Positions 9,698 through 56,469 of a DNA stretch of 56,469 nucleotides are shown one piece after another. The stretch spans positions 1-56,469 of the forward strand of contig NZ_QKYK01000036.1 in assembly GCF_003426815.1 (NCBI RefSeq). Reading direction: 5' to 3'. Each line of letters opens with the position of its first letter. Within the stretch, counting starts at the first letter, position 1. The notes below the pieces were generated by a model. The model searched no databases and was not told the DNA's origin. It saw only the letters and a list, made by a program, of their open reading frames with translations. Made by a program: the position numbers and the translations under genes. Origin of the DNA: Desertimonas flava (GTDB lineage: Bacteria; Actinomycetota; Acidimicrobiia; Acidimicrobiales; Ilumatobacteraceae).

Positions 9698-10291
9698 TCA
9701 GGCGGTGTGCGCCTGGTGCCCGTCGTTGTCGAGGATCGAGATCATCTCGGCCGGCTTGAGATGCGCCGTGAAGGCGTGCGGGGTCATCGTCGTGAAGTCG
9801 GCGGCATGGCCGGCGTGGACCAGCACCTCGCGCTCGCCGAGGAACAGCTTCACGGTGCCCGACAGCACGAAGAACCAGTCCCGGCCGGGATGGACCTGGA
9901 GCTCGGGCGGGGTCTCGAGCGGGGTGAGGCGCATCTTCACGACGTTGACCCCGTTCGGCCCGCGGTTGCGGCTGAGCTGCCATCTCGTGACGCCGTGGAG
10001 CTCGCAGCGCTCGGGTCGGATGACGACGTCGCCGTCGTCGGCCGAGGTGTCGACGAGGTCGTCGATCGTCGTGTTCAGGGCCCGGGCGATCGGGGCCAGG
10101 ACGTCGAGGGCGAGACGCCGGCTGCCGGTCTCGAGCCGGCTGATGGTCGAGGCGTTGAGGTGGGTCGCCGCAGCGAGGTCGTTCAGCGACATCCCCTGGG
10201 CGAGGCGCAGGGTGCGCAGCCGCTGGCGGACCACGCCGTCGAGGTCGGCGGCGCCGGACGTCGCTGGTGGGGTTCTCGTTCCCATTGCCAT
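9698..10291 (-). CDS. XRE-family regulator with C-terminal cupin domain
   Basis: 197 residues. Residues ~20-75 form a helix-turn-helix (LRLAQGMSLNDLAAATHLNA then STISRLETGSRR). Residues ~120-190 are a small cupin with HPGRDWFFVLSGTVKLFLGE and a MTPHAF turn. Such proteins bind DNA as dimers and sense a small ligand. The gene diverges from a flavoprotein at 10342; both start codons are 7 nt from a TAnnnT hexamer, and a 6-5-6 inverted repeat covers its own start, consistent with autoregulation and control of the neighbour. A second ATG six bases downstream is also possible. Confidence 0.85.
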   Translation of the reverse strand: MAMGTRTPPATSGAADLDGVVRQRLRTLRLAQGMSLNDLAAATHLNASTISRLETGSRRLALDVLAPIARALNTTIDDLVDTSADDGDVVIRPERCELHGVTRWQLSRNRGPNGVNVVKMRLTPLETPPELQVHPGRDWFFVLSGTVKLFLGEREVLVHAGHAADFTTMTPHAFTAHLKPAEMISILDNDGHQAHTA

Positions 10292-27348: not shown

Positions 27349-28892
27349 GCGAGCCGTTCCAGCAGCGTCTGCTTCTCGTCGTGGATCGCCGTGGTGATCG
27401 ACACGTGGTACTCGTGGGGGTTGACGAGCCGGCGGACACCAGGGTCGAGGGCGTCGACGTCGCGACGACGGCGCGCCGCGGCCGCATCCAGGTCGTCGAG
27501 GCCGCCGATGGCGACACCGGACTCGACCACGGTCGCGGTCAGTTCCTCGGCGCGCGACCAGCGGTCGGCCCGCAGCACGCGCGACACGTTCGGCAGGGCG
27601 TGGTGGTGCAGTGTGATGTCGGAGCCGGGCGCGAGGGTCTCGTCGATGCTCGCCAGCACGTCGGCCGTTGCCGTCCCGTGCTCGTCGTAGAGCCGCCACA
27701 ACCGCTTGCGACCAGGGTTGAGCACCTTCGCCGGAGAGTCGGACCGCTTGATCGCCGGGCGCCACGTCCGGCCGTCGTCGCCGCGGACCGCCACCAGCTT
27801 GTACACGCCGTCGAGCATCGGATCGCCGTCGCTGGTCGCCAGGCGCGAGCCGACCCCGAACGCCAGCCGGTCGATCACGTGGTCGGCATCGACGCCGGCG
27901 CGCCGCGCCTCGGCGGCGATCTGGTCGACGATCTGCCAGATCGTGATCTCGTCGAGCTGGCTCGACAGGACGATCTGGCTGTCGGGAAAGCCGGCGGCGT
28001 CGAGCTGCCGGGCCGACTGCACGGCGAGGTAGGCGAGGTCGCCGGAGTCGAGGCGGATGCCGACCGGTCGGTGCCCCCGTCGGCGCAGGTCCTCGAACAC
28101 CGCGATGGCGTTGGGCACGCCGCTCTCGAGCGTGTCGAGCGTGTCGACCAGGAGGAGGCAGTCGTCCGGATACGTGTCGGCGTAGTGCTCGAAGGCGTCG
28201 CGCTCGGTGCCGCCGGCCGCGATGAAGAACTGCACGAGCGAATGGGCGTGGGTCCCGACCGGGTCCCGGCCGAGCTCGTAGGCGACCGCCGCGTTGGACG
28301 TCCCGACCGCGCCCCCGACGATGGCGGCGCGCGAGGCGGCATCGGCTCCCGTGCCGGCGGCGCGGCGCATGCCGAACTCGAGCACCGGACGGCCGAGTGA
28401 TGCCTCGGCGACCCTGGCCGATTTGGTGGCGATCAGGGTGGCGAAGTTGAGCTGGTTGAGCAGCGGGGTCTCGATGAGCTGGGCGACGCCGAGCGGTCCC
28501 TCGATGGTGCTGATCGGCGTGTTGGGATGGACGACGCGGCCCTCGGCGACCGCCTCGAGACGGAGGGCATGGAAGTCGACCGATGCAAACCAGTCGCAGA
28601 ACGCGTCGTCGAAGAGACGAGTCCCCGCCCGGCCACGGTGCCGGCGCAGCGCGTCGACGTCGCTGGCGGTGGCCCGCGTGGACACCATCCACTCGGCGAA
28701 CGGCGCCAGCCCGGCGGCGATGCAGTAGCCGGCCTGATGCGTGCCGTAGTCGGGATAGGAGCGGAAGAAGTGCTCGAAGCGCACCGTCCGGTCGTGGACA
28801 CCGGCTCGAAGGTAGAGCTGAGCCATCGTCAGCTGGTAGGCATCGGTGCTCAGGACCCCACCACGCAGGACCGGGTGCGAGACGGTGCTCAT
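27345..28892 (-). CDS. pncB: Nicotinate phosphoribosyltransferase
   Basis: 515 residues. STDAYQLTMAQLYLRAGVHD at the N-terminus, the invariant LEFGMRRAAG with GTSNAAVAYELG, and HAHSLVQFF are NAPRTase signatures; GIRLDSGDLAYLAV binds the phosphoribosyl group. It converts nicotinate and PRPP (with ATP) to nicotinate mononucleotide. It is divergent from a nicotinamidase (28957), together giving the two-step nicotinamide salvage route to NAD. TAGCGT lies 9 nt before ATG 28892. The ends of this gene and the serine hydrolase overlap on CTAG. Confidence 0.95.
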   Translation of the reverse strand: MSTVSHPVLRGGVLSTDAYQLTMAQLYLRAGVHDRTVRFEHFFRSYPDYGTHQAGYCIAAGLAPFAEWMVSTRATASDVDALRRHRGRAGTRLFDDAFCDWFASVDFHALRLEAVAEGRVVHPNTPISTIEGPLGVAQLIETPLLNQLNFATLIATKSARVAEASLGRPVLEFGMRRAAGTGADAASRAAIVGGAVGTSNAAVAYELGRDPVGTHAHSLVQFFIAAGGTERDAFEHYADTYPDDCLLLVDTLDTLESGVPNAIAVFEDLRRRGHRPVGIRLDSGDLAYLAVQSARQLDAAGFPDSQIVLSSQLDEITIWQIVDQIAAEARRAGVDADHVIDRLAFGVGSRLATSDGDPMLDGVYKLVAVRGDDGRTWRPAIKRSDSPAKVLNPGRKRLWRLYDEHGTATADVLASIDETLAPGSDITLHHHALPNVSRVLRADRWSRAEELTATVVESGVAIGGLDDLDAAAARRRRDVDALDPGVRRLVNPHEYHVSITTAIHDEKQTLLERLA

Positions 28893-51766: not shown

Positions 51767-52573
51767 ATGACCGATGCCGACACCGCGGCAGACGAGGTGC
51801 TGTACGAGGTCGTCGACCACGTCGCCACGATCACGCTGAATCGGCCGCACCGCAGCAACGCCATCTCGATGCCGATGCTCGATCAGCTGTCCCAGCGACT
51901 CGCCGAGGCCGATCGTGACGTCCGGGCGATCGTCCTGACCGGTGCCGGCAAGGCCTTCTGCGCCGGCCTCGACCTCAAGGACGCGGCGTCGGGTACCGGC
52001 ATCGGTGGCGGATCGGGTGGCGGCGGGGCTGCGCACTTCAACACCCGCAATCACCCGACGACCGTGATGTTCGAGATGGACACGCCGATCATCGGGGCCA
52101 TCAACGGCGCCGCGGCCGGCTTCGGGCTGGACATCGCGCTGGGCTGCGATCTGCGCATCGTGTCCGAGGACGCCAAGATCGTGACCGGCTTCGCCAAGCG
52201 AGGCGTGGTGCCCGAAAGCGGCGGCACCTGGTACCTCCCGCGGCTGCTCGGTTGGTCGAAGGCGGCCGAGATCGGGTTCCTGGGCCGCACGTTGAGTGGA
52301 GCCGAGGCCGCCCACCTGGGTCTGGCGAACCGGGCGGTTCCCGCCGACCAGGTCCTGAAGACGGCCTGCGAGTGGGCGACCGAGATCGCCGCCAACGCGC
52401 CGCTCGCCGTGCAGTCGATGAAGCGACTGTTCCGTCACGGCCTCACCGAGGACTTCCCGAGCCACGTCCACCACGTGCTGCTCCAGACGATGCTGCTGTT
52501 CCAGAGCAACGACTTCCGCGAAGGCATCACGTCGTTCATGGAGGGCCGCCCCCCGCAGTTCACCGGCCGCTAG
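51767..52573 (+). CDS. Enoyl-CoA hydratase/isomerase family protein
   Basis: 268 residues. FCAGLDLKDAA and GAAAGFGLDIALGCDLRI form the oxyanion hole and CoA site; Glu in GVVPESGGTWYLPRLLG is the usual second catalytic acid. Crotonase-fold enzyme acting on an acyl-CoA; substrate unknown. ATG 51767 has an AGAGG ribosome site 7-8 nt upstream, and the long upstream frame to 51698 lacks one. Confidence 0.88.
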   Translation: MTDADTAADEVLYEVVDHVATITLNRPHRSNAISMPMLDQLSQRLAEADRDVRAIVLTGAGKAFCAGLDLKDAASGTGIGGGSGGGGAAHFNTRNHPTTVMFEMDTPIIGAINGAAAGFGLDIALGCDLRIVSEDAKIVTGFAKRGVVPESGGTWYLPRLLGWSKAAEIGFLGRTLSGAEAAHLGLANRAVPADQVLKTACEWATEIAANAPLAVQSMKRLFRHGLTEDFPSHVHHVLLQTMLLFQSNDFREGITSFMEGRPPQFTGR

Positions 52574-52610
52574 CTCCGAGATCGCACGTTTCGGGGTGGC
52601 GCGTCGGCGG

Positions 52611-52984
52611 TCAGACGACGGGAGCGCCGGTGTCGGGCGTGTCCTGGCTGAAGACGTTGACCCATATGCCGTCGCGTCGGCACCAGAGCGAGCTGACGTA
52701 CATCGACTCCTGCTCGCCGACCGAGCCGGCGCGCTCATAGACGGCGCGGTACGACAACATCGACGCGTCGGCGGAGACTCGAGGAGCCGAGCGTCCTGGA
52801 GGTCGAAACGGGCCACCGTCGGTCCGAGGGCGAGCTGCCCGACGTGGTCCTGCCGGCCGGAGAAGCCCGCCGGGTACACGCCGACGAAGTCGTCGGACAG
52901 CAGGCGCTCGTCGGCCGCCGCGTCGCCGTCGACCAGGGCCTGCCACACCTCGGTCTCGAGGGCGAGGATCTCGGCGAGCTGCAT
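52611..52984 (-). pseudogene. NTF2/SnoaL-like (DUF4440) gene broken by a frameshift
   Basis: The N-terminal half, from ATG 52984 (MQLAEILALETEVWQALVDG then SDDFVGVYPAGFSG), and the C-terminal half (VSADASMLSYRAVYERAGSV then YVSSLWCRRDGIWVNVFSQD TP) are consecutive parts of one NTF2-like domain but lie in different frames. The break is near 52780-52800 and looks like loss of one base. TACCGT 7 nt upstream shows the promoter is intact. A sequencing error is equally possible. Confidence 0.7.
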
Positions 52985-52991
52985 CGCGCCG

Positions 52992-53001
52992 ACGGTACCG
53001 T
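52992..53001. promoter_or_regulatory. Palindromic double -10, ACGGTACCGT
   Basis: The 10-bp palindrome contains TACCGT on each strand, sharing GGTACC. Each hexamer is exactly 7 nt from a start codon: ATG 52984 on minus and GTG 53009 on plus. One symmetric sequence therefore serves two divergent leaderless genes. Confidence 0.6.
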
Positions 53002-53008
53002 CATGCGG

Positions 53009-53527
53009 GTGGTGACACCCCACGACGTGCCGATCCCATGGGAGGACGAACAGCGCCTGCGGATCGACGAGCTGATCGACGAGTACCGGTCCGCGATGCA
53101 CGATTGCCTGGACGGCCTGACCGAGGAGGAGGCCAGGCTGCGGCTCGTCCCGTCGAGCACGACCCTGCTCGGCCTCGTCAAGCACGTCACGTTCGTCGAA
53201 GGCGTCTGGTTCGACCAGGCGGTGACGGGTCGTGGCTACGGCGAGATCGGCATCGCCACGACGCCGGCCGGGTCGTTCGCGCTTCGCGCGTCCGACACCA
53301 TCCCAGGAGTGCAGGCGGAGTATCGGCGACGCTGCGAACGGTCGCGAGCGACGATGGCGGCACTGTCCCCGTCGGATGTGGTCGACGGTCGGGGGACCCG
53401 GGCGGTCTGGGCGTTGCACCTCCAGGTGTTGCGGGAGCTCGCTCAGCACGCCGGCCACGCCGACATCCTCCGCGAGCAGATCCTCGCCCACCGGACCTCT
53501 GAAACCGGCGAGACCGAGCGGCGGTAA
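53009..53527 (+). CDS. DinB-superfamily (DUF664) protein
   Basis: 172 residues. A four-helix bundle with potential metal-binding histidines in LLGLVKHVTFVEGVWFDQAV and LAQHAGHADILREQI. Such proteins are metal-dependent and include mycothiol- and bacillithiol-S-transferases; which thiol is not shown. GTG 53009 is chosen for its 7-nt spacing from TACCGT; ATG 53003 lies inside that gap. The neighbour MFS follows at once. Confidence 0.8.
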   Translation: MVTPHDVPIPWEDEQRLRIDELIDEYRSAMHDCLDGLTEEEARLRLVPSSTTLLGLVKHVTFVEGVWFDQAVTGRGYGEIGIATTPAGSFALRASDTIPGVQAEYRRRCERSRATMAALSPSDVVDGRGTRAVWALHLQVLRELAQHAGHADILREQILAHRTSETGETERR

Positions 53528-53534
53528 GAGCCGA

Positions 53535-53540
53535 TACGTT
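53535..53540 (+). promoter_or_regulatory. -10 hexamer TACGTT before the MFS gene
   Basis: TACGTT is followed by 6 nt and then ATC 53547 in the transporter frame. The nearest standard start is TTG 53586. Confidence 0.35.
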
Positions 53541-53546
53541 CGCCGC

Positions 53547-54845
53547 ATCGCTGCGTCCATCCTCGTTCCCCTGCGACGCCGGTCGTTGCGGCACCTCGTC
53601 GGCGCCCAGTTCCTCGCCGAGAGCGCCGATGGCATCCTCACGGTCGTCCTGCCGCTGTACGTACTGGCGGCGACCGACTCGCCGCTCGCCATGTCGCTCA
53701 CGGCGACTGCCCAGATGCTCGGTGGAGCGGTGGCCGGCGTGATCGGCGGCGTGTTCGCCGACCGGTTCGACCGCCAGCATGTGTTGCGGATCTCGTACCT
53801 CGCCCGGGCCATCCTGCTGGTCGCTGCCTGGGCGGCGGGACCGGTCGCCCTGGTGGTGTTGCTCGGCGTGGCGGCGAGGGTGCTGGGCCAGCTCGACAAC
53901 CCGTCGTTCGACGCGCTGATCCCGCTCCAGGCCCGCGAGGACGACCTGCAGCAGGTGCTGGCGCTACGCCGGTTCATCCAGAGCGTGTCGATCATCGTCG
54001 GCCCGGCGATCGGGGCCCTGCTCGCCTGGCTGATCGACGAGAAACGCACGATGGTCGTCGCCGCGTGCCTCTTCGTCACCTCGCTGGTGATCCACCTCCG
54101 CCTCCGCGGCCTCGACACCGATCTCGCCGACCGACGGCGGGCCCAGCACGGTTCCGACTGGGTCGATCTCGTGCGCGGGATGACGATCGTGGTGACGACG
54201 CCGTTCGTGCGCCGGCTCGTCCTCTACTGGTCGCTGTCGCTGGCCACGGTGAGCATGGCGATGGCCGCCGCGGCGGTCTGGTTCGAGGACACGCTGGAGG
54301 CTCCCGACTACTGGTACGGGCTGTCGGTGTCGGCCTACGGCATCGGCGCCGCGCTCGCCACCTTGGCCTTCGGCGGGCGCCGGTTCCGCTGGTCGCTGCC
54401 CGCGATCCTCCTCGCGGCGGCGCCCTGTTACGCGATCACGGCCGTCGTCGGCGTCGCTGCGCACGTCGAGTGGTTGATGCCGATCGGCTGGCTGTTGTGG
54501 GGCATCGCCTTCGGACCCGAGATCGTCCGCGCCGAGCCGGAGTTCGTCGAGCGCATCGAGCCCGAGAGCCGGGGCCGGGCCTACGCCGGCATGGGGGTCA
54601 GCATGATGCTCGGCCTCGCCGCGGGTTACGCCGTGGCCGGGCCGATGCTCGATGCCTTCGGCGCCCGGACCACCACGTTGGTCACGGCCGTGGCGATCCT
54701 CGCCGTCGGTGGGATCTGGATCGGACCGCTGGTGCGCCGTGAGGCGGAGCGGACGTCGCAACCGGCAACCACGGCCACCCTTGCCCCCGAGCATCCCGTC
54801 GCCGCCGTCATCGGGACGTCGCGCGAACCGCACCCACCCTGCTGA
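53547..54845 (+). CDS. MFS transporter
   Basis: Up to 432 residues, 12 helices; GGVFADRFDRQHVLRISYLA carries the MFS GxxxDRxxR loop and the half-way cytoplasmic loop is DTDLADRRRAQHGSD. Export of an unknown compound. No ATG or GTG is suitably placed. ATC 53547 lies 6 nt after a -10 hexamer, where this genome puts leaderless starts; TTG 53586 would give a protein 13 residues shorter beginning just before helix 1. Confidence 0.75.
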   Translation: MAASILVPLRRRSLRHLVGAQFLAESADGILTVVLPLYVLAATDSPLAMSLTATAQMLGGAVAGVIGGVFADRFDRQHVLRISYLARAILLVAAWAAGPVALVVLLGVAARVLGQLDNPSFDALIPLQAREDDLQQVLALRRFIQSVSIIVGPAIGALLAWLIDEKRTMVVAACLFVTSLVIHLRLRGLDTDLADRRRAQHGSDWVDLVRGMTIVVTTPFVRRLVLYWSLSLATVSMAMAAAAVWFEDTLEAPDYWYGLSVSAYGIGAALATLAFGGRRFRWSLPAILLAAAPCYAITAVVGVAAHVEWLMPIGWLLWGIAFGPEIVRAEPEFVERIEPESRGRAYAGMGVSMMLGLAAGYAVAGPMLDAFGARTTTLVTAVAILAVGGIWIGPLVRREAERTSQPATTATLAPEHPVAAVIGTSREPHPPC

Positions 54846-55940: not shown

Positions 55941-56469
55941 TCAGGCCGATGCCCGGCTGATGCTGATGTCGCCGCTGAGTGAGCGGGCGTGGATCGAGAC
56001 GGTCTCGTCGCCGTCGGCCGGCGGCCCGGCGCTGTCGAGGGATGACCTGACGTCGCCCGTGATCGATCGGACGTCGAGCCAGGCCGCGGTCCCGTCGGCG
56101 ACGCCGATGCGTAGATCGCCGGTCGCCGAGTCGAGCTCGGCGCTGCCCGTGCGCACGGCGGCGATGCGAACGTCGCCCGACGCCGTGCGGCACGTGATCG
56201 AGCCGTCGACGCGGTTGATCGACACGTCCCCCGACGCCGTGCGCAGCTCGGCGTTGCCACCGACGTCGCGGCCCGAGATGTCGCCCGAGGCGGTGGTGAC
56301 GGTCGCCCTGGCACCGACGTCGCCGAAGCGGATGTCGCCCGACGCGGCCTCGGCGGTCAGGTCGGTGTCGACCGTCTCGCACGACACGTCGCCGCTGGCG
56401 ACGGACACCGACACACTCGTCGCTCGCTCGATGGAGACGTCCCCGCTCGCCGAGGTGATGTCCACGTCG
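55941..56469 (-). CDS. DUF4097-family beta-strand repeat protein, 5' end outside window
   Basis: At least 176 residues built of short beta-strand repeats, each with a (T/A)(A/T)SGD(V/I) core: VASGDVSC, AASGDIRF, TASGDISG, TASGDVSI, TASGDVRI and SATGDLRI. The family folds as a right-handed or rolled beta structure and is often paired with regulators of envelope stress. The frame is open to the window end, so the N-terminus lies beyond it. Function unknown. Confidence 0.82.
   Translation of the reverse strand, partial: DVDITSASGDVSIERATSVSVSVASGDVSCETVDTDLTAEAASGDIRFGDVGARATVTTASGDISGRDVGGNAELRTASGDVSINRVDGSITCRTASGDVRIAAVRTGSAELDSATGDLRIGVADGTAAWLDVRSITGDVRSSLDSAGPPADGDETVSIHARSLSGDISISRASA

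Follow-up and report, generated by a model that had tools for sequence, protein, structure and literature searches.

Two start codons of Desertimonas flava lie back to back on opposite strands with a palindrome in the short gap between them. This raises the question of whether one palindrome can act as the -10 element of two divergent genes, both of them leaderless. We addressed it in the window, the whole stretch of 56,469 nucleotides that was analysed, which makes up all of contig C30; the assembly has 73 contigs and totals 6.2 Mb.

Two predicted -10 hexamers within 24 nucleotides

The start codons, GTG 53009 on the + strand and ATG 52984 on the - strand, are separated by 24 nt (52985-53008). 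Inspection of this gap revealed a 12-base palindrome, GACGGTACCGTC, at 52991-53002, with no symmetry beyond it; its inner 10 bases, ACGGTACCGT, occupy 52992-53001, and the longer form adds one base per side. The palindrome reads TACCGT on both strands. The predicted -10 hexamer of the + gene is found at 52996-53001 (+) and is followed by 7 nt and GTG 53009, while that of the - gene is found at 52992-52997 (-) and is followed by 7 nt and ATG 52984. These positions and spacings agree with the original prediction. The two hexamers overlap each other reciprocally, in the central TA only (52996-52997), and on both sides TACCGT ends 7 nt before the start codon, within the 6 to 8 nt by which we defined a leaderless-type TANNNT hexamer.

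From this spacing we infer transcription starts at 53008-53009 for the + gene and at 52984-52985 (-) for the - gene. The predicted +1, taken as the seventh base past each hexamer, would be 53008 and 52985, respectively. With a spacing of 7, the start codon would lie at about +1 or +2, so that each message would carry no leader or a leader of one base. Since the hexamers share only the central TA, the predicted divergent starts are 23 bp apart, or 25 bp if both coincide with the start codons. A promoter scan found no promoter-like site containing a -35 element in 52400-53700, and a consensus promoter with a -35 was dismissed for this reason.

Within the window, we counted 148 palindromes of ten bases, of which 9 are centred on TA and 1 has the form A...TA...T. 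ACGGTACCGT is present in one copy, compared to a mean of 0.06 in shuffled sequence. The ORF list also held, at 55941-56465 (-), an ORF with repeated ASGDVS-type units that reaches the end of the window.

Start signals in the genome and in homologues of the two genes

The spacing of 7 was then compared with that of other genes in the same assembly. We sampled 1,353,083 bases in stretches, giving 1,409,552 bases with the window, and scored candidate starts of 1254 genes from a simple home-made gene caller for the distance to TANNNT. The hexamer ended 6, 7, 8, 9 and 10 nt before the candidate start in 76, 68, 37, 21 and 11 of the 1254 genes, respectively, and at every other spacing from 0 to 40 in 1 to 13 genes. 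Taken together, spacings of 6-9 nt accounted for 196 genes, compared to 19 and 18 at the control spacings of 14-17 and 30-33 nt. A genome from another family of the order, G062, gave the same peak (16, 7, 5 and 5 of 187 genes at 6-9 nt). Judged by this pattern, leaderless starts are heavily used in the genome, and their signature is a putative -10 hexamer that ends 6-8 nt short of the start codon; both TACCGT hexamers of the window lie at its peak. TACCGT was the commonest TANNNT hexamer at 6-8 nt (18/181), but its share among leaderless-type hexamers was no higher than among TANNNT in the sample as a whole (0.95-fold).

The + gene (53009-53527) is assigned by Pfam to the mycothiol-S-transferase (MST)/DinB family (PF04978; E 3.2e-34, 119 bits against a curated cut-off of 27). 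In addition to GTG 53009, two in-frame starts that the original prediction had overlooked come into question, ATG 53003, which lies 1 nt past the hexamer, and GTG 53012. We therefore looked at 12 distinct MST orthologues that are 47-77% identical to the + gene, leaving out L008 (same contig as L036), L050 (match without the N-terminus) and the window itself. TANNNT was found 6-7 nt before a start in 7/12, with 6 of these at 7, and any other single spacing held it in at most 1 of 12. In L037 and L038, the start at TANNNT+7 aligned with GTG 53009, and in L007 it aligned one codon further on; in L040, L044, L204 and L039, the TANNNT-associated starts lay at -1, +3, +4 and +8 codons relative to GTG 53009. 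Four of the five remaining orthologues had GANNNT or AANNNT at 6-7 nt, and L043 had neither. Across 110 MST-family loci, counting the window and one duplicate, TANNNT was present at 6-9 nt in 28. The recurrence at 6-7 nt and the aligned starts support the conclusion that the predicted + promoter hexamer is kept in orthologues and that GTG 53009 is the most likely start.

On the other strand, 52611-52984 holds a DUF4440 gene starting at ATG 52984, of which the N-terminal part matches the Pfam family (PF14534, 37.8 bits). A search of 100 genomes, its own included, yielded homologues at 7 loci in 6 other genomes. For six of the seven, the match to the window is split between two frames, which join near 52778-52781; the remaining locus is truncated. 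The - gene thus carries a frameshift, about 200 nt in, likewise overlooked in the original prediction, which in this assembly may reflect either a pseudogene or an assembly or sequencing error. For the promoter, 6 homologues were counted, L122 being left out because it has only 8 bases upstream. NANNNT was observed at 6-7 nt in 5/6 (TACCAT+7 in L117, CAAGCT+7 in L120, GAGACT+6 in L119 and L121, AACAAT+6 in L123), and at any other spacing in at most 2/6; L118 had no such hexamer at 6-7 nt. The strict form, TANNNT, occurred at this distance in 1/6. Comparative support for the putative - promoter is real, but weaker than that for the + promoter. The original prediction of one palindrome serving as the -10 of two leaderless genes was partly supported, on the + side by the orthologues and more weakly on the - side.

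Divergent pairs, chance and conservation

We then asked how common divergent leaderless-type pairs are in this genome. The gene caller listed 204 divergent pairs, from which the window pair is absent. In 20 of them TANNNT was present at 6-9 nt on both sides, compared to 0/204 at 14-17 nt. About 15 double pairs (50 x 62 / 204) would be expected if the two sides were independent, so that the 20 seen do not indicate a strong coupling of the two sides. Start-codon gaps in the 20 pairs ranged from 27 to 203 nt, and the 24 nt of the window pair are tighter than all of them. The window pair occupies the short extreme of a distribution of divergent leaderless-type pairs that is itself ordinary. It had been described as an unusually clean case; it is a tidy one, but such pairs as a class are ordinary here, which suggests that no special design is needed to explain this one.

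Other close pairs were noted in the same genome. At C56 57005/57033 (L188:17005-17033), genes for a MarR-type regulator and a CLC chloride channel stand back to back with 27 nt between the start codons, and the sequence ACGATA-T-TATCGT places inverted TATCGT hexamers one base apart; this is a second candidate for a merged core. In the window itself, leaderless-type -10s are found on both sides between an HTH-cupin regulator (-) and a pyridine nucleotide-disulphide oxidoreductase (+) at 10291/10342 (50-nt gap), and between a nicotinate phosphoribosyltransferase (-) and an isochorismatase-family protein (+) at 28892/28957 (64-nt gap).

The symmetric arrangement was also compared with chance. The pattern CAY-N6..9-A...TA...T-N6..9-RTG, which covers 16 spacing cells, occurred 5 times in 1.41 Mb including the window; the other 345 cells of the grid held 31 occurrences, giving an expectation of about 1.4 for 16 cells. 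In the offset bin with the geometry of the window pair, the 5 occurrences compare with 1, 1, 6, 1, 1 and 1 in six control spacing sets. Since one of these sets reached 6, the arrangement alone is not clearly in excess of chance. Called genes flank the pattern on both sides at C56 57018 only. At the occurrence in the window, the caller found a gene on the + strand alone, and the broken - gene was recognised from its homologues; the other three occurrences lack a called gene on one side. Pairs with the offset of the window numbered 0 in 80 actinobacterial loci (0.49 Mb) and 0 in 220 kb of G062; in these two sets, offsets of 31-60 were found 3 times and once, and offsets of 61-120 twice and once. 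What makes the arrangement credible is the gene context together with the conservation of the + promoter.

Conservation of the pair was examined in flanks of about 1.5 kb or 3 kb, which were shorter where a contig ended. Within these flanks, none of the 110 other MST-family loci, 109 of them distinct, contained DUF4440, and none of the 7 DUF4440 loci contained MST; no second genome with the same gene pair was present among the MST loci and the 7 DUF4440 loci fetched. At E <= 1e-30, MST itself was found in 4 of 221 genomes of the family, its own included. None of the 7 orthologues with a strict TANNNT had a 10-base palindrome at the -10, nor did the DUF4440 homologue L117. Among these eight loci, only L040 had the A that a reverse hexamer overlapping at the TA would require, and none had a reverse start codon 3-14 nt beyond the -10.

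The idea of the symmetry as a maintained design is not supported by these orthologues. Comparison of related genomes for conservation of the palindrome had been proposed as a check, and in the relatives found the palindrome is absent while the + promoter is kept, the combination that the original prediction had named as refuting it; the same relatives also lack the divergent neighbour within the flanks. Since palindrome and neighbour are absent together, the merged promoter appears to be lineage-specific, which is not the same as non-working. The perfect symmetry is probably incidental, and we would expect function to depend on no more than the shared TA and the outer T of each hexamer.

A probable bidirectional core promoter and competing explanations

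Our preferred interpretation, to which we assign a probability of roughly 0.6, is that the palindrome is the bidirectional core promoter of two leaderless or near-leaderless genes. The evidence is good on the + side and moderate on the - side, whose product is broken in this assembly. Two TANNNT-type -10 hexamers on opposite strands, overlapping at the central TA and with no recognisable -35, would be bound by the housekeeping RNA polymerase in either orientation. Transcription would begin some 7 nt beyond each hexamer, either at the first base of GTG 53009 or ATG 52984 or at the base preceding it, and would yield two leaderless or near-leaderless mRNAs with starts about 23 bp apart. One bound polymerase would cover both sites, resulting in mutual exclusion. 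Such a promoter probably arose in this lineage when two leaderless genes, one for a mycothiol-S-transferase and one for DUF4440, came to be divergent neighbours.

An alternative that we consider rather unlikely is that only the + promoter works, the - hexamer being a chance by-product of TA-centred symmetry and the DUF4440 gene a decaying pseudogene. The conservation of the + promoter in MST orthologues, the frameshift in the - gene and an arrangement that is not clearly above chance would all fit this explanation. Against it stand TACCGT exactly 7 nt from ATG 52984 on the - strand and the -10-like NANNNT at 6-7 nt in 5/6 DUF4440 homologues, and faulty sequencing or assembly may account for the frameshift. 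More doubtful still is that transcription starts elsewhere, with the + gene translated from ATG 53003 via a promoter further upstream and the palindrome not a promoter at all. This codon is in frame, ATG is usually the stronger start, and a degenerate hexamer, GACGGT, lies 6 nt before it. The orthologues argue against this, since the TANNNT+7 starts of L037 and L038 align with GTG 53009 itself and that of L007 with the next codon; the corresponding starts of L040, L044, L204 and L039 fall at -1, +3, +4 and +8 codons.

It is very improbable that a dimeric regulator of one or both genes uses the palindrome as its operator, even though a perfect 12-base dyad between divergent genes can resemble such a site. 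Palindromes of 12 bases are common (48 in the window), ACGGTACCGT occurs only once across the 1.41 Mb of sampled genome sequence, Pfam identifies no regulator in the pair, and no orthologue -10 is palindromic. The operator hypothesis was disfavoured on the single copy and on the absence of the palindrome in orthologues.

The closest known systems are the bidirectional promoters with symmetric -10 elements studied by Warman, Grainger and colleagues (PMC12825309; PMC10268837). That divergent transcription from symmetric -10 sequences is known in bacteria, as the original prediction had stated, is confirmed by the description of such promoters across all prokaryotes (PMC12825309). According to the same source, divergent starts 18 bp apart are the commonest, with 10 and 23 bp also common; another definition requires opposite-strand starts 7-25 bp apart (PMC10268837). 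From the geometry we derive that starts 23 bp apart make positions -12 and -11 of the two promoters coincide, as is the case here. The window promoter would resemble these promoters in its opposed, reciprocally overlapping -10s, its predicted 23-bp distance and steric exclusion, but would differ in that both products are predicted to be leaderless mRNAs and in its GC-rich TANNNT in place of TATAAT. The word "leaderless" is absent from the main text of PMC12825309. The claim that polymerases for the two genes must exclude each other is upheld in part: simultaneous binding of two polymerases at a bidirectional promoter is stated to be impossible (PMC12825309), but at all five tested promoters basal transcription was too low for competition (PMC12825309, abstract).

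The other component, a -10 motif at the start codon, is equally familiar. In Deinococcus-Thermus, the -10 motif of leaderless genes lies about 6-7 bp upstream of the ORF (PMC12340547), TANNNT is found at leaderless starts in M. tuberculosis and mycobacteria (PMC10937400), and leaderless genes of this kind are reportedly also the subject of PMC3898074. The window genes resemble these in having the motif 6-7 nt from the start and a predicted leader that is absent or very short, whereas the -10 there serves one gene and would be shared here. PMC12340547 does not use the terms divergent, bidirectional, opposite or palindrom-. The lysG-lysE intergenic region of M. tuberculosis is similar in its overlapping divergent promoters with one leaderless transcript, but only one leaderless start is described there and a dedicated regulator binds between the genes (PMC5648196). 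The EcoRV restriction-modification system shares divergent promoters with overlapping polymerase sites and coupled two-sided transcription; its C transcript, however, is not leaderless (PMC5333194). Leaderless divergent pairs or promoters on one shared -10 were not named in the titles and abstract openings of the literature searched, which is not proof of their absence. Each phenomenon is already known, and what sets the window pair apart is their predicted conjunction, both directions being leaderless on one shared -10.

In this genome, one shared TA step within the 24 bases between the start codons may be the whole core control region of two leaderless genes, a single polymerase binding event choosing which protein is made. 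We tentatively suggest that genome compaction in leaderless-rich, high-GC actinobacteria could repeatedly end in merged cores of this kind. Bidirectional -10 promoters and leaderless mRNAs, both known separately, would meet at this locus in a single minimal case. If the starts map where predicted, it would offer a clean natural test of whether the ratio of two proteins is set by the orientation in which polymerase binds a shared -10, and neither a leader nor a -35 would confound the reading.
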